DNA of 64,000 bases, taken from positions 1 through 64,000 of the forward strand of contig NZ_JAHLPU010000051.1 in NCBI RefSeq assembly GCF_018918045.1. The letters are read 5' to 3'. Each line of letters begins with the position of its first letter. Positions within the stretch are counted from its first letter, which is position 1. Shown here piece by piece: positions 11,450 to 40,165 of the stretch. Below the pieces are notes generated by a model that had not been told where the DNA came from, made no database searches, and saw only the letters and a program-made list of their open reading frames with translations. Made by a program: the position numbers and the translations under genes. The stretch comes from Pseudoflavonifractor sp. MSJ-30 (GTDB lineage: Bacteria > Bacillota > Clostridia > Oscillospirales > Oscillospiraceae).

Positions 11450-12561
11450 AAAAAAGAGATGTTGGGCTGGATATTACCAGAATCTTCGCCTTTTTCAGCG
11501 TGGTATGCATCCACTCTCTGCTGTACACCGGATTTTATGAAACACCGGTTGCCGGGAAACGGATGTATCTTCTGATCATGCTCCGAGGAATCTTCAATAC
11601 CTGTATTCCCCTGTTCCTGATGCTCAGCGGTTGGCTGCTCAGCGGACGTGTCATTGATCTGGAGCCGAAAGGCAGTCTTCGGCGCTATGTTTCCGGCTGC
11701 AAAGGTCTTGTCTGCACCTACCTTCTCTCAGGATGCGCCCTGCTGCTCTTTATGCGCGGCTTTCTGCGCATGCCCCTCCCCTTCCGGGAAGCCGCGGCCT
11801 ATATTCTGCGCTATGACGAGTACGCCTGGTACGTCAATATGTATTTGGGGCTCTACCTGCTGATGCCGTTTCTGAATACTCTCTGGCGAGGGCTTTCCGG
11901 CAAATCGGCACGAAAAAAATGCGTTCTCTGTCTGCTCCTATTGACTGCCCTGCCGGGCCTTGCAAATGTCTATGATCTCCGCACCCCTGGCGTTCTGCTG
12001 CAGCCCTGGAATTACACCGGGCAGACCCAGCTCGTGCCCAACTGGTGGACAGCCCTTTACCCCGTAACCTTCTATTTCCTTGGGGCCTACCTTCGGGAAC
12101 ACGGAAATGTCCGCCAGATGCACACCGGAAAAGCACTGTTGGTATTGCTGCTCAGCATAATCGTTTGCGGCGCTTATAATATCTGGCGCTCCTGGAACGG
12201 CAGCTTCGTTCGAAGTCTCTGGAACTGCGAAGGCAGCTGGCAGACGATCCTGTGCGGCGTGCCCGTGTTTCTGTGCATCAATTCCATCCGCTTTCCAGAA
12301 CCCGGGAAACAGCTTGGGAGACTTCTCGGGCTTCTGTCCGAGTTGACCTTCAGCGCATACCTGTTGTCCTGGGCCAGCGATCAGGCCGTTTATCAGGCGC
12401 TCTATCCCAGACTGCTGAGCGCCTTCGGTGTTCTCGCCCGCCCCATATCCATTGCCGCTTCCGCCGCTCTGGCTCTTTTGGGCGCGTTCCTGATCCGGCT
12501 TGTGCAAAAGATGCTTTTTGCCCTGCTCCGCGGAATTCGGAAAGCCCCTGCTAATGTATGA
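11446..12561 (+). CDS. Membrane acyltransferase (acyltransferase-3 family)
   Basis: A 371-residue protein with about ten membrane helices. The N-terminus (GLDITRIFAFFSVVCIHSLL) has the conserved R and the H of the acyltransferase-3/OatA-WecH superfamily, which O-acylates surface sugars or peptidoglycan. The motif LRGIFNTCIPLFLMLSGWLL fits the family's second and third helices. It is coupled by ATGA overlap to the GT-C-like gene, so the two probably act on the same envelope glycan. Substrate cannot be read from sequence. A strong hairpin follows. Confidence 0.8.
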   Translation: MKKRDVGLDITRIFAFFSVVCIHSLLYTGFYETPVAGKRMYLLIMLRGIFNTCIPLFLMLSGWLLSGRVIDLEPKGSLRRYVSGCKGLVCTYLLSGCALLLFMRGFLRMPLPFREAAAYILRYDEYAWYVNMYLGLYLLMPFLNTLWRGLSGKSARKKCVLCLLLLTALPGLANVYDLRTPGVLLQPWNYTGQTQLVPNWWTALYPVTFYFLGAYLREHGNVRQMHTGKALLVLLLSIIVCGAYNIWRSWNGSFVRSLWNCEGSWQTILCGVPVFLCINSIRFPEPGKQLGRLLGLLSELTFSAYLLSWASDQAVYQALYPRLLSAFGVLARPISIAASAALALLGAFLIRLVQKMLFALLRGIRKAPANV

Positions 12562-30162: not shown

Positions 30163-31191
30163 TCAGCGGAAATCTCCCTGTGTGAGGCTTTCATATACCG
30201 TCGGCATACTTCTGGGAATCTCACGACTGCGGGCAGCGGACCAGAGGATGGTGCCCAGTACCAGAACCAGCGCCATACAGATTCCCATGCCTGTATAGGC
30301 AAACATGGCCTCGCTTCCGTGACGCTGGACATAATACTCCATATAGCCCGCACCCCCCAGAAACAGCAGCCCGGTGACCCACAGTGCCAGAGTTCCCAGT
30401 TTGCTGCCCCGGGCCTTCAGGTAGCGCACCGTGAAGCAGACAAGGGCCAGCACCACCGCGCACAGGCCAAGCACCTGCACCACGCTGACAAAACCGTTGG
30501 CCCGGAAGAAGTACGAATCCGTCCGGGTAGAATCCAGCACCGCCTGGCTCCCGCCATAGTACAGGCAGAACAGCCAGAAGATATCCCCGGGGCGGCGGTG
30601 ATACTCCCGTTTCCGTGCGAAATAAACCACGAGCAGAATTAGGAAGATCACCCCGGCGGCGGCAGATTGCAGCACAAAGGTGTTCAGTCGGTATTCCGCC
30701 GCGCCGGTGGCCGCGCTGATCACCTCGCTGCCCAGCAGCGCGCCTTTCGGCAGAATGCCGCCCCGGTCCGCGCTGTTCGTAAAGCAAGCCAGTCGTCCCA
30801 GGGCAATGGCTCCGGCACCTGCCAGGCTCATGGCATCCAGCATGGCCCCCAGATGCCGCCCGCGGCGAAGCGCCGCCAGCAGCAGCGCCGCCAGAAAAAT
30901 GCCCGCAAAGGCTCCGGCCAACAGGAAACCGCCCCGGCTGTAGTCCGTCAGAGCCTGGCGAAGACTTTCAAAGCTGCCGGGCCGGAAATACCAGTAGGCA
31001 AGTCTGGAAAACACCATGCCGAACCCCAGACTCAGGGGCACCGCACAGAAGCCGCCTACGGTATCGGCCTCGTCCCAGAGATAGAGGAACAGAAACAGCA
31101 GCAGCCCCACGGCACAGGCCATGGTCAGAATTGCCGTGCTCCAATAAACCATATAAGGGCCCCAGATAAACGCGATTTGCTCCATGGTCAC
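30163..31191 (-). CDS. Lgt-like (prolipoprotein diacylglyceryl transferase family) membrane protein
   Basis: A 342-residue protein with seven or more membrane helices. GRLACFTNSADRGG corresponds to the GR(x)GN(F/C)xN signature of Lgt with the essential Arg, and DSTRTDSYFF to the C-terminal Arg-containing loop. The remainder is divergent and the C-terminal helices extend beyond normal Lgt length (about 260-290), so this is probably a paralogue, not the housekeeping enzyme. It overlaps the phosphodiester glycosidase gene by ATGA and ends that operon. Confidence 0.65.
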   Translation of the reverse strand: MTMEQIAFIWGPYMVYWSTAILTMACAVGLLLFLFLYLWDEADTVGGFCAVPLSLGFGMVFSRLAYWYFRPGSFESLRQALTDYSRGGFLLAGAFAGIFLAALLLAALRRGRHLGAMLDAMSLAGAGAIALGRLACFTNSADRGGILPKGALLGSEVISAATGAAEYRLNTFVLQSAAAGVIFLILLVVYFARKREYHRRPGDIFWLFCLYYGGSQAVLDSTRTDSYFFRANGFVSVVQVLGLCAVVLALVCFTVRYLKARGSKLGTLALWVTGLLFLGGAGYMEYYVQRHGSEAMFAYTGMGICMALVLVLGTILWSAARSREIPRSMPTVYESLTQGDFR

Positions 31192-32306
31192 TTCTCCTTC
31201 GGCTTGGCCGTTCCGAAATAAATGATGTCACTGATGAGCCGCTGATTTCCGTAGCTGACATTGTTGAGGACTTCATTGTTCATGACAACCGTAGAGGTCT
31301 GGCCGCCATCCAGGTTATAGGCCCGGATGCAGCCCGTTTCCTGACAGATCTTTACCAGTTCCTTACCCGTTGGCATATGTGTGTGGGTTCCCTCGTAATT
31401 GCATACCACCACCAGATAGTGCAGCCGGTCCATTTGGCACAGCGCCTCCCGGGCGTAATTGCCGGTCAGTTCGCCTACCATGTACACCGGCAGTTCCTGG
31501 GCCTCATAATTCTCCACCAGAATGGGGCCGAAGGCCAGGGAGAAGGAGATCTTGTTCTCATCCACATACGTCTGTGCTTCCTGAGCATTGGCAAATTCCT
31601 GCCTGCGCTTCAGGATCAGGTCGCCGTTCTCGTCCACATAGCACACATCCGTAATGCCGTTGTTCATCCGGCAGACTTTCCCGTTGGCCACAACATTGCC
31701 GGTAATGCGGTAATTATAGAAGTCGCCGGAGAATGCCATAACGGCATTGACCTGTTCCGCCATTTCCGAAGTAAGGGAAAGTCTGCCCGAGCAGTAACCG
31801 TCCCCGGAGAAATGCCGCCGGAACTGAGAGGGATCCATGATCTTGACCTCGGAATAGGTCACCGCCGTATTGTTTACAACTTCTTTCCAGCTGACAGCAA
31901 AAATGGTATCGTCCAGATAGTAGTGGATGGTGCTGCCCTCCATGATCTGCCGATCGGTAGAGAAAAACAGCTTCTGCCCCTCCAGCACATCCGCTGCCCT
32001 GTCAAGAACGCCCCGCAATTCCTCAGGGTCCGATGCCTCGCCGAAGCAGCTCTGTTCCGGTTCCGGTGCCACCGCAGCGTCTTTCTCGATCCAGTAGTGT
32101 TTTTTCATCTGGGTAACGTTTGCCAACGCATCGCTGAGCCGATTGTTCACTTCCATCCGGAAGGTATCGCCCACACGGAGTTCCTTGGCAGGGGCATCTG
32201 TCTGCTGCTCTCCCGGCACCAGCAGCAGTGTCCATAGGATCGGCGCCGTCAGCGTCAGGGCCGCAAGGCAGAGCAGCGTTCCGGAAAAAAACTTCAATGC
32301 TTTCAT
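31188..32306 (-). CDS. Phosphodiester glycosidase (NAGPA/DUF2233) family, membrane-anchored
   Basis: A 372-residue protein with one N-terminal membrane helix (about 8-32) and an extracellular domain. The last 200 residues have the NAGPA pattern: AVMAFSGDFYNYRITG, VYMVGELTG and YNLDGGQTSTVVMNNEVLN (Asp-Gly-Gly catalytic region). The family removes GlcNAc from phosphodiesters or acts on exopolysaccharide. It overlaps the upstream gene by TAATG and the Lgt-like gene by ATGA. Confidence 0.8.
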   Translation of the reverse strand: MKALKFFSGTLLCLAALTLTAPILWTLLLVPGEQQTDAPAKELRVGDTFRMEVNNRLSDALANVTQMKKHYWIEKDAAVAPEPEQSCFGEASDPEELRGVLDRAADVLEGQKLFFSTDRQIMEGSTIHYYLDDTIFAVSWKEVVNNTAVTYSEVKIMDPSQFRRHFSGDGYCSGRLSLTSEMAEQVNAVMAFSGDFYNYRITGNVVANGKVCRMNNGITDVCYVDENGDLILKRRQEFANAQEAQTYVDENKISFSLAFGPILVENYEAQELPVYMVGELTGNYAREALCQMDRLHYLVVVCNYEGTHTHMPTGKELVKICQETGCIRAYNLDGGQTSTVVMNNEVLNNVSYGNQRLISDIIYFGTAKPKEK

Positions 32307-32950
32307 TATCCCTGCCCTCCGTCCAAATCTCCGGAAAGCAGACTCCGCAGCTCCTTACCTGGAATGATCTTCCAGTCTTCCCCGTCATAAGCCAGCTTCA
32401 GTGCAATGCTTTTTTCACAGACCGCCGTGGTCTGCTCCGCAGCCGTTCTGGCCGCCTGGACAAGGACCTCGTCCAATATCTCCTGGCGGTAACCGCCATC
32501 CGTATTATACACCTCGGAAACATTCTCGGCCTCGTCCACCCGCTGCCGCAGGCACGTCTGGGTCAGCTCCCCCATCTGCCGGATGACCGCATCCATATCC
32601 GGATAGGTGATCCGTGCGTTCACGGTCAAAAAGCTGCCCTGGGCATAGGGTTTTCCCTCCAGGGTCGCTTCCAGTCCGCCCCAATACCTGTCCCAAAGGA
32701 TCTTCTTCGCCCCGTCCTGATCTGAAACCATATTCAGTTCCGGCGCTCCCAGAAGCTCCACGGAAGCCCCCTCCAGATCCATACCGCACAGCTTATCCAG
32801 AAAGTTCTGCGCGCAGGCCATGACCCTGGGGTCCTCCTTCAGCATCATCGTCTGCCGCCCCCGGGCCGTCAGGGCCAGCATCAGCGTCACCGCCGCCCCG
32901 GCCGCCGCCAGGATGCCGAAAAATGCCGCAAGTATTCTTCTCTTTCTCAT
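32306..32950 (-). CDS. Membrane-anchored protein of unknown function
   Basis: A 214-residue protein: one helix near the N-terminus (about 7-29), then a mixed alpha/beta extracellular domain. I recognise no family. The pattern of helix, short strands and a terminal YDGEDWKIIPG suggests an NTF2-like fold of the kind common in clostridial surface proteins, but that is a guess. ATG 32950 has GGGAGAG upstream. First gene of a three-gene coupled operon with the glycosidase and the Lgt-like protein. Confidence 0.65.
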   Translation of the reverse strand: MRKRRILAAFFGILAAAGAAVTLMLALTARGRQTMMLKEDPRVMACAQNFLDKLCGMDLEGASVELLGAPELNMVSDQDGAKKILWDRYWGGLEATLEGKPYAQGSFLTVNARITYPDMDAVIRQMGELTQTCLRQRVDEAENVSEVYNTDGGYRQEILDEVLVQAARTAAEQTTAVCEKSIALKLAYDGEDWKIIPGKELRSLLSGDLDGGQG

Positions 32951-33020
32951 AGTCTCTCCCACCGTGTCCCAGCTTTTCCGCCCGGCAGTCTCAGACGGTT
33001 CAAGGCACACTCCTTGGGTT

Positions 33021-33367: not shown

Positions 33368-34183
33368 ATGCAACGCCTTAGCAACAATCGTTTCCCCAAA
33401 TTTTCGGATGAGGAGTGTATCACGGCATACCTGTGGGGCAAATTGGAAGGACGGTTGACGCAGAAAGACGCTTATAACTTTATCCGTGATTACTGGCATG
33501 ACTGGTTTCCAGACTTGCCCAGTTATCAGGCATTTTGCAGGCGGCTGAATAATCTTGCCCCAGCATTTCAGGCATTGTCTGAAGTTTGGTCAGGGATACT
33601 TTGCGCAAATTTCGAGAAATCTGTACAGTATATCGTGGATTCCTGCCCAATTATTCTTGCGAAACAGGCACGGTCCGGTGCGGCCAAGGTAGCCAAGGAT
33701 TATTGTGATAAAAGTTATAATTCGTCCAGAAAAGAGTATTACTATGGGGTAAAACTCCACGCATTTGTCATCCGAAGACCGGGGGCCTTGCCCGTTGCGG
33801 AAACGCTTATGATCTCAAAGGCTTCTGTCTTTGACTTGACTGCCGCAAAAGCGATGTTTCTGAATGCCACACCAACCCACAGCGGTTGGCTGCTGGCGGA
33901 TAAGGCGTACTGCGATTCTGAATGGGCAGATTTGCTGAAAACACAATATGGAATTAAAGTCATAACACCAAGAAAGCAGAAGAAAGGTGATACCTTGAAG
34001 TCCGGTGATGCATATTCAACTGCAGTCAGCTCACGCCGGCAGCCCATTGAATCTTTCTTTCATTGGATGAATTCCAGGTTTCACATCCAAACGGCTTCTT
34101 TTGTACGTTCCAGCGCGGGCCTTTTGTTCCATGTGTTCGCTACCATTGCCACAGCTATGGTTTTCAAACTTTTTAACTCTTGA
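33368..34183 (+). mobile_element. IS982-like DDE transposase
   Basis: A 271-residue transposase. The DDE residues are visible: D91 in VDSCPI, D178 in LLADKAYC and E228 in RQPIESFFHW. The N-terminal LSDE-type start (FSDEECITAYLWGKLEGR) and the FP-L...F-RRL pattern fit IS982. Length is a little short of the usual 290 or so but no frameshift is seen. No terminal inverted repeats were found close to the gene, so the insertion sequence limits are not defined. Confidence 0.75.
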
Positions 34184-34320: not shown

Positions 34321-35504
34321 TTATCCATCTTTACCCTCTATTGAAATAGAAATGGCGTAAGGTTGCTGAGAACCGTCTTCAGCTGAATCATGTTCATGGG
34401 AATAAAGTTGAACTGCCTGCTTTAAAGTTTCCTGCGCAGCTATATACCGCTCACCAGCTGATATTTGCGTTTCCTTAGCCTGCTCAACCGCATTCCGAGC
34501 TTCAGCTTCTTTTTGATTGCAGTTTTCAAATGTCTTCTTCGCTTTTTGCAGCGCATCACAAACATAAACATATCGCTCGGCTGCGAGTGTAACCTCGTGC
34601 TCCGCTTTCTCTTTTTGCGCCAACGCATTTTTATATTCGCACTGTGCCTTTAGGAGTGCCACAAACCCGATTGACAACTTGGCAGATACAATTCCCGCAA
34701 TGGAAACATCATCACCGCTGCCTCTCCTAGACAACCCTGGCAGGAATCCGCTAACTTCATTCTCTCCAACTTGCCGACCATGTTCCGCAAAAATCGATAG
34801 GATCGAGCGGTATAGAACGTATAACTCCTCCTCGTCAGCATAGGAGTCATCAATTCCATCCGTTCCCATCAATGTTGCGGCAGGGCATTTTGTTTTGAAT
34901 GCATAGCGGAATTCATTAATTGCATCCGAATCACAGATAGATGTTGTAATATTTGACTGGCAGTTTTCATCCCACGGAATCGGTTCTTCAATGGTTCCAT
35001 CTGTAGAAATAGTTACACATTTTCCATCGCCAATTTGAATTCCGAACCAGAACGATTCCGTTTGGCAAGCCGCTATCAACGTTGTACCATAGGCTTTTTC
35101 GGATTTGCGGCCAGATAAATACCTTTTTGATAGCGATCTGATGCATTATCCATCTCAGCCTGAGTAAACGGGTGCTCAGCCACATCTGCATACACAGCAG
35201 CATACCATTTAGAAAGGATACTTTTTGCAAGCTGCTCTAAATAGGCTTCTGGGCTTTCCGCAATACCAACATTGCAGTCAACTACTGTTTCAACAAATTC
35301 TTTAATCGAGCCAATCGCCGCCTCAACGGCATAACGGGAGCCTTTGTCTGTGCGGGGATAATCATCGCTGCCATGGCCGTCTGCAACAACAACAATGGAC
35401 ATACAGTCATCAGTATAGTGCCCAGATGAATCCTGACAAACTTTATTAGCCTTGATGTGATTATACCCCTGGGCAGAAAAAGCAAAATCATATATAGAGT
35501 TCAT
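34321..35504 (-). pseudogene. PP2C-type Ser/Thr phosphatase, frame broken by one base
   Basis: Two overlapping frames together encode one PP2C protein of about 393 residues. Part 1 (from ATG 35504, GGAGG upstream) holds VVADGHGSDD (metal Asp/Gly) and runs to KGIYLAANPKK, then out of frame to a stop. Part 2 resumes as AYGTTLIAAC and carries FGIQIGDGKCV, LMGTDGIDDSY and RGSGDDVSIAG (further metal Asp residues), then a C-terminal coiled coil of about 90 residues. The switch is a -1 shift at a run of five A on the coding strand (35095-35099), as if A6 had lost one base. Last gene of the five-gene operon; expected to reverse the kinase encoded upstream. Confidence 0.8.
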
Positions 35505-35527
35505 AATCGGGTCCTCCCGCTTATACC

Positions 35528-36283
35528 TTACCACTGTCCCCAATCACTGTCGTCAACTGTAATCGGTGCTGCTGCGGTATCGCTTGTCAAATCATTTTTC
35601 ACTTCATTTACAATCTTTGCGGAGTCTTCCTCGGCTGTTGTATCAACATCGGATGTTTGTTTGCTATGACTCTGGAACTCAGACGCACGAACGCTAACCT
35701 TTCGAATCAGTGCCTTCAATGTGTGCTTGTCATTTACAGGAATTACAGATTCAGGCGTACCTGTAAAAGCTGCAAGAACAGATTTATCTGCATCATCGCC
35801 AATTGCAATAGCAATTTTAATGGCATGTTTGAACCAGTTGTTTTGCTTCAGCTGCTGCAGTCCCTTCTCCCAATTATCAGTTGGGCCGCCGTCGCTCACC
35901 AACAGAATAACGGGGGCATACGCCCCTGTCTGGGATTCCAGGAAAGCGTTTCTTGACAGTTTCTTGTCCAGTTCTTGACATGCGGCACCCAGATCAGTCA
36001 ATCCGCCAGTCTGTAAATCGTTCCAGATTACATCCCCAATGCCAATGGGGCCAGAGGCAGGGGTAATCCACGAACAGCCGCTGGCAAACTGCATAATTGC
36101 AATTCTAATTTCCGCATCATCATTTGCAGAAGAAATTTCAGGCAAATCTACCGCAATCGCCTCCTCCATCGCTGAGTTGACAGCACCAATTTTTTCACCA
36201 TACATGCTTCCAGAAGTATCAACTACATAGAAGAGCGTCATAATCTTTCGGGGGGACGGAGTAACCTGATCAAGCAGTGACAT
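35528..36283 (-). CDS. terY: TerY-like von Willebrand factor A domain protein
   Basis: A 251-residue cytoplasmic protein. VWA domain at about 10-200 with a complete MIDAS: DTSGS (D22, S24, S26), TGGLTDLG threonine and LLVSDGGPTD aspartate. The C-terminal 50 residues are acidic and Thr/Asp-rich (DVDTTAEEDS) and look disordered, a possible phosphorylation tail. In TerY-P systems the VWA protein is the partner of a kinase and a PP2C phosphatase, and both flank it here with gaps of 17 and 23 bp. Confidence 0.85.
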   Translation of the reverse strand: MSLLDQVTPSPRKIMTLFYVVDTSGSMYGEKIGAVNSAMEEAIAVDLPEISSANDDAEIRIAIMQFASGCSWITPASGPIGIGDVIWNDLQTGGLTDLGAACQELDKKLSRNAFLESQTGAYAPVILLVSDGGPTDNWEKGLQQLKQNNWFKHAIKIAIAIGDDADKSVLAAFTGTPESVIPVNDKHTLKALIRKVSVRASEFQSHSKQTSDVDTTAEEDSAKIVNEVKNDLTSDTAAAPITVDDSDWGQW

Positions 36284-36300
36284 AATTCATTACCTCTCTA

Positions 36301-37620
36301 TCAAAACTTTATTGCTGCGGCAACCTGTCCATTGCCGTGGAAATCAAATTGGAAGCCATCTTTGAGCGGAACAACGTTGCCAGGTGAAAGCGGTCTTTGC
36401 GTGTTATCTGGAAGTGTAATAATCCACGTTGTCTGCGAAGTATTGCGAATGCCCGTTAATCTGGGATCTTTCGGATTAGAAACGACCTCGCCAACAACGG
36501 TTTCAATATCTTCCAGCGTCGAATCAATATGCCATAAGTACAGCTTCATCCCAACATGAAGCGGAAGCTGGTAGTTCTTCAAAAGCAGAGTAGGCACCTG
36601 AGGAATCATTTTCTTGCACTCGATACATTTGCTGGGAGCAGCCACCTGATAAAAAGTCTCTTCCTTGCAAATCGGACATGTGCCAATTTCTGCACGGAGT
36701 CTGAAAAATGCGTCAAGCCATTCCTTTTCCAGCACTCTGGGCTTCCGCTTGTGCATGACATCCTGGCTAAATGCCCGAATGAATAAATCTTTGATGTACT
36801 GCGGATATACGCTCCAAAATAGTTTCAAATTGCAATCTGTACCTGGGATTGGTCGATTTCTCTTATCCACTGGATCATAAACAAAAATCGGTTCAGTACC
36901 GTAGTATTTCTTTTCCAATGCCTTTGTCATACACGGAGGGGTGGAGTAGCCCCCTTCCAGGGGATGATTGATGAACAGCAGACGGAACAGTACCACAGCC
37001 AGAGAAAACCTATCAGACTGCTTATCGGGATCAGACTCCAATGTTACAATTTCGGGAGCCATCCAACGCTGCTTGCCCATAATCCCCATATTGGTTCCGT
37101 ATGGGGAAACATTGTCATTATCACAAATCAGGACATCACCCGTTATAGGGTTTATGAAAAAGTTGCCGTTGTTGATATCCTGATAACTGTATCCTCTGTT
37201 ATGTAATTCCCGAAAGCCCTGTATAATATTGATGGCGGCAGCTGTGACGGCGTGAAATGATTTAAAGGAGACCTGCTTTTGCTTTCGAGAGCCAACAAAG
37301 AAATTGGTCAGCTCTTCATAACCATTGGGCCGGATATCCATGATATAGCCAAAGGTTCCATTATAAACTTCTGTAATTCCTTGGGGCCAAAGAAATGCTT
37401 TTGTCGGTGCGCCTTTCAAAATGTTGTTTTCCAGGTTCTTGTAAAAGGCCGCTTCGTTTCCCTTGAACACACCGTTGTGATACCATTTTAGTGCATACTC
37501 TTTTCCGTTATAGCTAACCTTGTATACGGTGCCTTGCCCGCCTGAACCAAATTCTGCCAGAACGGTAGCTGTGTCACCGTTTTTCATTTTTATGGTATCA
37601 CCAACTTTTAGTGTTGCCAT
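36301..37620 (-). CDS. Ser/Thr protein kinase with zinc ribbon and C-terminal beta domain
   Basis: A 439-residue protein. Kinase domain at about 15-305: glycine loop FGSGGQGTVYK, lysine K45 (ALKWY), catalytic loop YSYQDINNGNFF (D148, N153; the HRD Arg is Gln), metal site ICDNDN in place of DFG, and APE at 188-190. A CPIC/CIEC zinc ribbon follows (C315, C318, C332, C335), then a beta-rich domain of about 95 residues resembling the FHA-like ends of TerY-P kinases. The residues needed for phosphotransfer are present. Third gene of the operon. Confidence 0.85.
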   Translation of the reverse strand: MATLKVGDTIKMKNGDTATVLAEFGSGGQGTVYKVSYNGKEYALKWYHNGVFKGNEAAFYKNLENNILKGAPTKAFLWPQGITEVYNGTFGYIMDIRPNGYEELTNFFVGSRKQKQVSFKSFHAVTAAAINIIQGFRELHNRGYSYQDINNGNFFINPITGDVLICDNDNVSPYGTNMGIMGKQRWMAPEIVTLESDPDKQSDRFSLAVVLFRLLFINHPLEGGYSTPPCMTKALEKKYYGTEPIFVYDPVDKRNRPIPGTDCNLKLFWSVYPQYIKDLFIRAFSQDVMHKRKPRVLEKEWLDAFFRLRAEIGTCPICKEETFYQVAAPSKCIECKKMIPQVPTLLLKNYQLPLHVGMKLYLWHIDSTLEDIETVVGEVVSNPKDPRLTGIRNTSQTTWIITLPDNTQRPLSPGNVVPLKDGFQFDFHGNGQVAAAIKF

Positions 37621-37668
37621 TTTCTGTATTTCCTTTCTTCTCCCAGATTTTAAGAACTGAATTGGTTA

Positions 37669-38871
37669 TCAAGCTCTGACAACAGTTAGTCCTTCTTTTC
37701 GTGCGTATTCTACTGCTTTTGAGCCAGCATAGCAGGCAGCAGTAACTGTACCACTTGAACGCCCAAAGACTCTCCATCCAAATTCTTCAACTGTTGATGG
37801 AATTCTAATATTGGTAAATTTACACCCAGAAAAGGCGAAATTACCTAATTCTCGCAAGCCTTCATTAAGGACAACGTTGGTAATCTTACAATTACAGAAT
37901 GCACCCTCCCCTACCACCTTCATTGAAGGTGGTAATATAATACTTTCCAATTCTGCGCAGCCCTCAAATGCATGTGCAGAAATCTCTGTTAAATTATCTG
38001 GCAGCATTACCGTTTTAAGGTGCCAGCAATTCATAAATGCATCTACCGGAATTGTTGTAATACCATTGGGCAAATCAATTGACTCTAAGCCAGACTCAGA
38101 GAATACACCTGTAACGCTCTCCCATGAGTACTCTTTGTGCCTTCCTTGTTTTATCGTAGTCAATGTTGTTGGCAGTGAAACCTTTTTTAACAGAGGGCAT
38201 TTACAAAAAGCCCCTATTTCCAGCACTTTCGTTCCCTCACCAATAATTGCTTCTTGTAAATTGTCACAATTCTGGAACGCATGCACTCCAATCGTTTTAA
38301 TGCCAGGTGCTATCACCAGCCTCTTTATCCCCTTGCAGGAATCAAATGCATTCGCGCCGATACATACAATTTGCTTTCCGTCAATAACATTGGGTACAAG
38401 CATGTCTTCCTGCTCAAAGCCAACAAACTTTGTAAGCTCTGCTTTCCCATTCCCCAAATCTTTTACTTCATAATCGCTTACGTTCCCTTTGATAACAGAT
38501 GGCGTAGTTATTGGTTTATGCGTATGTCCTGTAACACTTGGATAATGAACACTTGTCGGCGTAAAGTGCATCGACTGTGATACACCCTTTCCGAGACAGA
38601 CATCAATCCATGCATTCAGTCCATCAATAATACATGATTCCTGAAGTCCGTAATCACGCTCAATCTTCTGCACATACTGTACATACTGCGTATCAGAAAT
38701 CGTACCCTTGGATTTTATTGTCAGGGGTACGCCACTTTCGTAGATATCCAGAAGGACGTTCATCTCTCTTGTCTTTCCTGGATACAGGTCCAATATAATT
38801 GAACGCATCAATGCTCTGCTTTGAAGACTATCCTTGGAATAGCTTAGCACCCTTTGCAAATCTATTTCCAT
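37669..38871 (-). CDS. BspA-type leucine-rich repeat protein with N-terminal helical domain
   Basis: A 400-residue protein without a signal peptide, so probably cytoplasmic. Residues 1-95 form a helical domain (LMRSIILDLYPGKTREMNVLL, then DYGLQESCIIDGLNAW) of a type that recurs in Firmicutes proteins fused to signalling domains. Residues about 150-395 are LRR_5/BspA repeats: IGANAFDSCKGIKRLVI, IGVHAFQNCDNLQEAII, ISAHAFEGCAELESIIL and so on. It may sense or scaffold a target for the kinase; that is inference. 48-bp gap to the kinase gene. Confidence 0.82.
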   Translation of the reverse strand: MEIDLQRVLSYSKDSLQSRALMRSIILDLYPGKTREMNVLLDIYESGVPLTIKSKGTISDTQYVQYVQKIERDYGLQESCIIDGLNAWIDVCLGKGVSQSMHFTPTSVHYPSVTGHTHKPITTPSVIKGNVSDYEVKDLGNGKAELTKFVGFEQEDMLVPNVIDGKQIVCIGANAFDSCKGIKRLVIAPGIKTIGVHAFQNCDNLQEAIIGEGTKVLEIGAFCKCPLLKKVSLPTTLTTIKQGRHKEYSWESVTGVFSESGLESIDLPNGITTIPVDAFMNCWHLKTVMLPDNLTEISAHAFEGCAELESIILPPSMKVVGEGAFCNCKITNVVLNEGLRELGNFAFSGCKFTNIRIPSTVEEFGWRVFGRSSGTVTAACYAGSKAVEYARKEGLTVVRA

Positions 38872-38912
38872 ACAAGGTCCCTTTCTCTATACTGATGTCT
38901 AACTTCTTAATC

Positions 38913-39422
38913 TTAGGACTTCCTGGTAATCAAACGCAAGACACCGAACACAAGGTTCCCATCAGGCACAAACACTTTCAGCGTTTCCTTTCCAAACTGG
39001 AATTCAACACAATTTGCGTATGGATTCACTGAAATCAGGTCATCCACTTTTTTATCAAATCCCTCAGAAGAACTTGTAAAGATAATTCTCCTGTTTGTGA
39101 TATACAGAACGCCCTTTAGGGCGGTGTACTGTACATCGTCCACACTTGTAGTATCTCCACTGCCAAAATAGATACGGTTTCCTCGGAACAACCCTGGTGT
39201 GCTGACACCTGCATTCTTCCGAATCTTCCGTTGCTTTACAGTTCTTTTTTCATATAGAGCCTGATCCGCATAATGGCAGTATTCTTGATTCTTTAAAAAG
39301 AGATTTGACATTTGGAGAATTGGTAATTTTCCGCAGAGAATTTGATTCTTAGCAGCATCAGGCAAAACACTGGGGACTGCAGGAGTAGTTACTTTTGGTT
39401 GAAAAAAATCTGTGAAGCTCAT
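38913..39422 (-). CDS. PH/GRAM-like domain protein
   Basis: A 169-residue soluble protein and the first gene of the operon. The C-terminal half has the beta-strand pattern of bacterial PH/GRAM domains: KGVLYITNRRIIFTSS, then the strands NCVEFQF and TLKVFVPDG. The N-terminal half is a helical segment with two Cys (KNQEYCHYADQALYEKRTV). Lipid or protein binding cannot be read directly. AAAGGGG precedes the ATG. Confidence 0.6.
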   Translation of the reverse strand: MSFTDFFQPKVTTPAVPSVLPDAAKNQILCGKLPILQMSNLFLKNQEYCHYADQALYEKRTVKQRKIRKNAGVSTPGLFRGNRIYFGSGDTTSVDDVQYTALKGVLYITNRRIIFTSSSEGFDKKVDDLISVNPYANCVEFQFGKETLKVFVPDGNLVFGVLRLITRKS

Positions 39423-39820
39423 GGAGGATTACCCCTTTGATAATCGATTCTATGCAGTTAGGTATAGCTATTCGAAAATATCAACCGATTGACTATATCC
39501 ATACATAGCCGTCTATACCCAGTTATTCAAGTATAACTACATTGTAATATAAAATTTGGAAAAAGCAACAAAAATATGCACTGATACATCTCCTGCTGTT
39601 TTACTTTTTTATAAAAGTCAGGGCAATTTGATATATCCTTCTAAACGTACAATAACGTTACTGTTGTATTCTAACGGGTGCCGTGAGGGGGATTCTAAGA
39701 AAGCGATGCTTGCATTTGTCCATAGCCAGTCGGATTTGTTTTATGGCTTGTAGTACATTTGCTGGTTTCAAAAAATGAAGTCACAATATGTATACCATCA
39801 AAAATAATGGAGGGACAAAT
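39423..39820. other. Gene-free stretch between the TerY-P operon and tnpV
   Basis: The left 120 bp are A/T-rich and should contain the operon promoter: on the minus strand there are several TATA-like boxes and a TCAACCGATTGA near-palindrome at about 39480, but no single convincing -35/-10 pair. A plus-strand frame at 39556-39753 starts with TTG, lacks a ribosome site and matches nothing I know, so it is not called. Confidence 0.4.
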
Positions 39821-40165
39821 ATGGAAATCACCTATACGCTTATCGGGGACTATTATCGCCCCAATCCGGTCGCACCGGAAAGCCCAAAGGTAGGCCGTTG
39901 GGGAATGTTGCGTTTCAACTATTTAAGGAAACACCGTGAGGCACTTTATACCATCATGCTTATGGAGAACACGCTGAACTCCCATCTGGAAGAAGTTGAT
40001 CGTCAGGCGCGGGAAATGGAACAACTGCTTATTTCTCAGCTGGCACAGCAGGAGGGTATTACCGAGCAGTTGAAAGTGGAAAATCAAATGGAATGGATTG
40101 CCCGGATGAACAGCATTCGGAATCGGTCAGATGAAATTGTCTTGAACGATCTCATCTATGCCTAA
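39821..40165 (+). CDS. TnpV family transposon protein
   Basis: A 114-residue protein with the TnpV pattern: ITYTLIGDYYRPN at the start, GRWGMLRFNYLRKHRE, LYTIMLMENTLNSHL, QMEWIARMNSIR, and EIVLNDLIYA at the end. The family is carried by clostridial transposons and integrative elements; its role is unknown. ATG 39821 has GGAGGG upstream. It stands alone with its own terminator and is probably a leftover of the element that brought in the neighbouring operon. Confidence 0.85.
   Translation: MEITYTLIGDYYRPNPVAPESPKVGRWGMLRFNYLRKHREALYTIMLMENTLNSHLEEVDRQAREMEQLLISQLAQQEGITEQLKVENQMEWIARMNSIRNRSDEIVLNDLIYA

Follow-up and report, generated by a model that had tools for sequence, protein, structure and literature searches.

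In the window, which is the whole stretch of 64,000 nucleotides that was analysed, a TerY-P-type triad of a zinc-ribbon Ser/Thr kinase, a VWA protein and a PP2C phosphatase is encoded in one operon with a PH/GRAM-like protein and a BspA-type LRR protein, and the helical domain that opens the LRR protein recurs beside such triads in other genomes, at the start of proteins whose other ends differ. Judged by sequence comparison, the recurring unit is this N-terminal domain (NTD) more than the LRR itself. Our preferred reading, in which we place middling confidence, is that the locus belongs to a TerY-P-type signalling system which is mobile and was acquired by horizontal transfer, and to which exchangeable plug-in proteins have been added. 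The triad itself has reportedly been described by Anantharaman in 2012. TerY-P triads recur in many bacteria, and a shared adaptor domain would provide a sequence handle for the inputs and outputs of the TerY-P switch, including solo genes elsewhere in the genome.

The operon and its flanks

The relevant features of the window are the following.

33368-34183, plus strand: IS982-family transposase, directly 3' of the operon (NCBIfam IS982, E 4.5e-40)
34321-35079, minus strand: PP2C C-terminal half with coiled-coil tail, in the other frame (PP2C_2 model positions 99-199)
35076-35505, minus strand: PP2C N-terminal half, frame 1 (PP2C_2 model positions 2-81), from an inferred ATG start; the mechanical ORF start is 35543
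35124-35128, minus strand: A5 run, the PP2C break point, placed by DNA alignment with the intact genes of L002, L003 and L004
35528-36283, minus strand: TerY-like VWA protein, 251 aa (VWA_2, E 1.7e-9)
36301-37620, minus strand: TerY-P-type Ser/Thr kinase, 439 aa, with a C-terminal zinc ribbon and an uncharacterised tail (Pkinase, E 6.5e-14)
37669-38871, minus strand: NTD-LRR protein, 400 aa, a six-helix N-terminal domain followed by BspA-type LRRs (LRR_5, E 1e-45)
38560-38868, minus strand: NTD, an unnamed helical domain of about 100 aa (profile A4 match)
38913-39422, minus strand: PH/GRAM-fold protein, 169 aa, encoded by the operon's first gene (Pfam GRAM, E 1.3e-3, below the cut-off of that model)
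39788-40165, plus strand: TnpV transposon-associated gene, on the 5' side of the island (TnpV, E 6e-39)

On the minus strand, the operon runs from the PH/GRAM-like gene through those for the BspA-LRR protein, the Ser/Thr kinase and the VWA protein to PP2C, and successive genes are separated by 41, 48, 17 and about 22 bp. A five-gene operon in an A/T-richer region flanked by transposon genes had been described in the first-pass annotation, and gene calls and Pfam matches bear this out, the PP2C as one gene excepted. The GC content of the operon stretch is 39-46%, compared with 53-59% in its surroundings, and GC3 is 0.36-0.47 in the genes of the system versus 0.70-0.78 in nearby genes. The flanks are formed by the IS982-family transposase on one side, which scores 137.7 bits against an NCBIfam equivalog cut-off of 130, and by TnpV on the other. 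A search of the genus gave no clean empty site, since three same-genus genomes retain the gene block at 30163-33010, though not beside FeoB in the stretches compared. A phage origin was also considered and set aside; viral contigs held no relatives of the window proteins, and the few matches were obtained with the kinase profile only.

The identification of the triad itself is supported by the related loci, nearly all of which have the zinc-ribbon kinase, VWA and PP2C genes side by side, and by TerY_C genes (PF15616) in L005, L021, L022, L023 and L047. The catalytic residues and the zinc-ribbon cysteines (C315, C318, C332 and C335) are invariant among 14 aligned kinases, which upholds the zinc ribbon that had been proposed for the kinase; the FHA-like end proposed along with it is unproven, the tail having no Pfam match at E≤1. 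The VWA protein, encoded in the same operon, has a MIDAS (DTSGSM...T...D) that is intact in sequence, as had been noted before. When PADLOC was run on the triad, it returned weak PD-T4-6 and MAD6 kinase matches only, none of them TerY-specific, from a library that may hold no TerY models. As the TerY-P triad is presented in PMC11090510, the likeness consists of a zinc-ribbon kinase, a TerY-like VWA protein and a PP2C, split in the window, in one operon, with TerY_C in related loci, whereas the system described here also includes a PH/GRAM protein and plug-ins that are linked by the NTD and have variable ends.

The weak GRAM match behind the PH/GRAM-like call is strengthened by the predicted structure of the protein. 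Its AlphaFold model (pLDDT 79) has the seven strands and C-terminal helix of a PH fold and aligns with Lam6 (Z 12.8, rmsd 1.8, 94 residues) and MTMR2 (Z 11.8, rmsd 1.9, 93 residues).

An N-terminal domain shared by diverse proteins

The NTD of the LRR protein is modelled as six helices (pLDDT 86), which together with the LRR_5 match agrees with the earlier description of a BspA-LRR protein with an N-terminal helical domain; a signal peptide is not evident. No matches to the NTD were found in Pfam, NCBIfam or PHROG, the Pfam scan covering 14 NTDs. Assignment to a known fold, for example a Death-like one, was rejected, as the PDB gave no confident match (Foldseek E 2.1 at best; VIA, Z 4.7), a result that does not in itself demonstrate a new fold.

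The same domain also opens a RecQ-like helicase in L002 and L004, so labelled from its DEAD and Helicase_C matches and its DEIHC and GHDFRPEY motifs, a UvrD helicase in L003 (broken frame) and L018, a Sel1 protein in L022, DUF4190/membrane proteins in L021, and others. Three NTD genes stand beside the triad in L044, and L045 encodes an NTD-FGE protein. The NTD profile gave no convincing match to the kinase, VWA or PP2C proteins of the related loci. Within a single locus, the identity between NTDs is 88-98% in L043 (four compared) versus 25% in L003. A search of plasmids for the LRR gave generic LRR matches only. On the Methylomonas plasmid CP157007.1, five tandem NTD genes lie 3' of a TerY-P triad (L043:11882-16418); their ends are Sel1, Clp_N, a ClpX zinc finger and two that are unassigned.

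The nearest precedent for the NTD is provided by the EADs of ternary conflict systems (Kaur 2020, PMC7159879), small and mostly helical adaptors that occur on diverse effector and signalling proteins and have additional copies at other places in the genome. Similarly, several of the effector or signalling proteins within a system carry the NTD; however, in the EAD systems a core component has a copy too, and EADs are thought to self-pair (PMC7159879), whereas the NTD is found on no core protein. The comparison with the described EAD families was made through Pfam, in which the 14 NTDs have no match, and not through EAD models by name. GAP1-N2 systems (Kaur 2020, PMC7159879) likewise bring together a kinase-zinc ribbon-beta domain protein, a PP2C and a vWA, but they are described as actinobacterial, and no GTPase or GAP1 component was noticed in the window.

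In the reading that we prefer, the zinc-ribbon kinase, the VWA protein and the PP2C phosphatase would form a constant core acting as a phospho-switch, onto which the NTD would dock plug-in proteins with differing other ends (LRRs, RecQ-like or UvrD helicases, Sel1, FGE, Clp_N, a ClpX zinc finger or membrane helices). The kinase and the phosphatase would set the state of the docked NTD proteins, which would serve as exchangeable inputs and outputs of the switch, with the helicases acting on DNA. The LRR would be a fast-changing, cytoplasmic recognition arm and the PH/GRAM protein may place the complex at the membrane or at a partner; the previous suggestion that the LRR and PH genes are a sensing or target arm is plausible. 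Such a system would probably act in DNA surveillance or in protecting the cell from phages or plasmids. It is conceivable, although we hold this only tentatively and lean against it, that the NTD is an undescribed docking domain of a modular TerY-P immune platform, in which a constant kinase-phosphatase-VWA hub could be joined by any NTD sensor or effector and the LRR would be a fast-evolving recognition cassette, loosely as if a eukaryotic LRR immune receptor had been divided into separate proteins. The NTD may have been described earlier.

A frame break in the PP2C gene

The PP2C gene sits in the same operon as the window kinase and VWA genes, but it is split by a frame break in the catalytic domain that was overlooked when the PP2C was first annotated as one gene. 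The two halves lie in different frames and match PP2C_2 with E values of 6e-14 and 2e-9. Because the gene is intact in the close relatives L002, L003 and L004, where it is a single frame of 406-435 aa, the window copy of the PP2C is probably inactive, and with a broken PP2C frame the window copy of the system is probably not fully working. Programmed frameshifting was considered as well; no canonical slippery heptamer was seen, and the relatives read through in one frame.

Whether the locus in this genome is a decaying relic is, in our estimation, evenly poised. Apart from the broken frame, this is suggested by the IS982 transposase directly 3' of the operon, at the position where NTD genes stand in L002 and L003; unlike in those loci, a helicase or further NTD gene is absent there, and no leftover of either a helicase gene or another NTD gene was found in the window. 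Against it, the four other genes are intact, and the break may be either a real loss or a single-base assembly error in the A-run, the analysis covering one assembly of the strain. A relic here would be compatible with a mobile TerY-P system extended by plug-in proteins, since that reading concerns the family.

Defence context and stress response

TerY-P triads have been described as involved in tellurite resistance and hypothesised to be metal-sensing phosphorylation switches; a link with CoCoNuT restriction systems is known as well, and antiphage activity has been reported for TerY-P-like modules (PMC11090510). The operon could be an ordinary TerY-P module for responding to stress or metals, in which the extra genes would provide substrates or scaffolds for a stress response of housekeeping type rather than for immunity. 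The tellurite and metal-sensing descriptions (PMC11090510), the invariant zinc ribbon and the TerY_C genes in related loci would all fit with this, but we consider it unlikely, since no terC or terD genes were noticed near the window, the kinase is patchily distributed (5/300 genomes in the family, 6/391 in the class and 3/398 in the phylum), mobile elements flank the operon here, and the relatives have RM or BREX neighbours and helicase partners. L003 adjoins HsdR, HsdM and HsdS (type I RM), L046 adjoins a type IIG RM enzyme (2094 bits), and HIRAN domains are found alongside UvrD in L003 and L018. In our preferred reading of a mobile system with exchangeable plug-ins, the family probably guards against foreign DNA, as far as its sequences indicate. 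The proposal that the operon itself is a defence or stress island gains indirect support from the low GC content, the mobile-element flanks and the RM and BREX neighbours in relatives; on the other side, the window's own flanks contain no defence genes.

As cited in PMC11090510, the TerY-P-like antiphage modules of Gao 2020 resemble the present system in having a kinase, a VWA protein and a phosphatase as a module, but their kinase ends in an OB-fold, whereas the window kinase has a zinc ribbon and then a tail without a Pfam match. In contrast to CoCoNuT-linked TerY-P systems, cnu genes were not seen here.

Further observations were made in the neighbourhoods of the relatives. In L047:1-7926, on a contig filed as viral, the BREX genes PglX, PglZ and BrxL lie directly 5' of a TerY_C-kinase-VWA-PP2C cluster and in the same direction. 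A HIRAN domain is fused to a long BspA-LRR array in L003:15179-17314, next to the UvrD-NTD gene, the UvrD frame being broken in the assembly. Between the triad and the UvrD-NTD gene of L018, a 177-aa helical protein of TerB-like look ('AASDGRITVKE') is encoded at 11812-12345 (L018:11812-12345), with no Pfam match at E≤0.01.

Linkage across genomes

The kinases of L002, L003 and L004 are 67-76% identical to that of the window, and the other relatives are 33-48% identical. The gene order is PH-LRR-KIN-VWA-PP2C in L002, PH-KIN-VWA-PP2C-LRR in L003, LRR-PH-KIN-VWA-PP2C in L004, PH-KIN-VWA-PP2C in L018 and KIN-LRR-VWA-PP2C in L023. Since recurrent linkage with triads was thus found for both genes, the extension of the triad by LRR and PH genes, which had been proposed in the first-pass annotation, stands. 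PH homologues adjoin the triad in L002, L003, L004, L018, L042, L046 and L047, of which L042 is a Bacteroidota plasmid locus and L046 and L047 are similar virome loci. The PH gene is not exclusive to TerY-P, as a Treponema plasmid carries a PH domain in a TM2 protein with no triad nearby.

Both in Bacillota and on the Methylomonas plasmid, the NTD is found again next to TerY-P-type triads. It was found in 4/5 kinase-positive and 0/295 kinase-negative genomes of the family (Fisher 1.5e-8), in 4/6 and 0/385 of the class (Fisher 1.6e-8), and in 2/194 genomes of the phylum, both kinase-positive, with 0/~190 among the kinase-negative ones (Fisher 5e-5), tests whose positive side, unlike the zero counts, is partly circular because most NTD matches in the genome samples are profile seeds. 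The weight therefore rests on the zero counts, the NTD being present in none of about 870 triad-lacking genomes in three overlapping samples, and on unseeded loci: a profile search found unseeded copies beside the triads of L043, L044, L045 and L007 (E 1e-8 to 1e-22), and the updated profile added L005 and L046. Twelve of 14 NTD matches lie no more than 3 kb from a kinase gene; two NTD genes (LRR or membrane) are away from any triad (G071:C35 and G553:C75), and several triad loci (L006, L024 and L049) have no detectable NTD.

LRR_5 proteins are common and highly variable, and in other contexts they are surface proteins. It is nevertheless highly improbable that chance placed the LRR and PH genes next to the triad, because both are found there again in several genera and families, in the same direction and separated by short gaps, and the same holds for the NTD across phyla; chance is already refuted for the NTD-LRR gene, and the PH gene is found in 8 of about 20 loci from two phyla.

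Between L002 and L003, the identity is 91% for the kinase, 92.5% for the VWA protein, 76% for the PP2C and 71% for the PH protein, but 37% for the LRR protein. This low identity, and the different positions of the LRR genes despite 91% identical kinases, mark the LRR as an apparent variable cassette. The gene seems to be kept, but replaced or fast-evolving, as would be expected of a recognition part, and its variability points to the recognition of something that itself changes quickly; we only infer this role, because LRR arrays also diverge by repeat turnover.

NTD proteins are encoded on contigs separate from the triad, at L037:7631-9001 (LRR) and L038:8229-9353 (membrane), as if recruited in trans. 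In L007:5153-9320, three tandem TerY-P-type kinases are followed by one VWA protein and by a PP2C of 1323 aa whose tail is long and repetitive.
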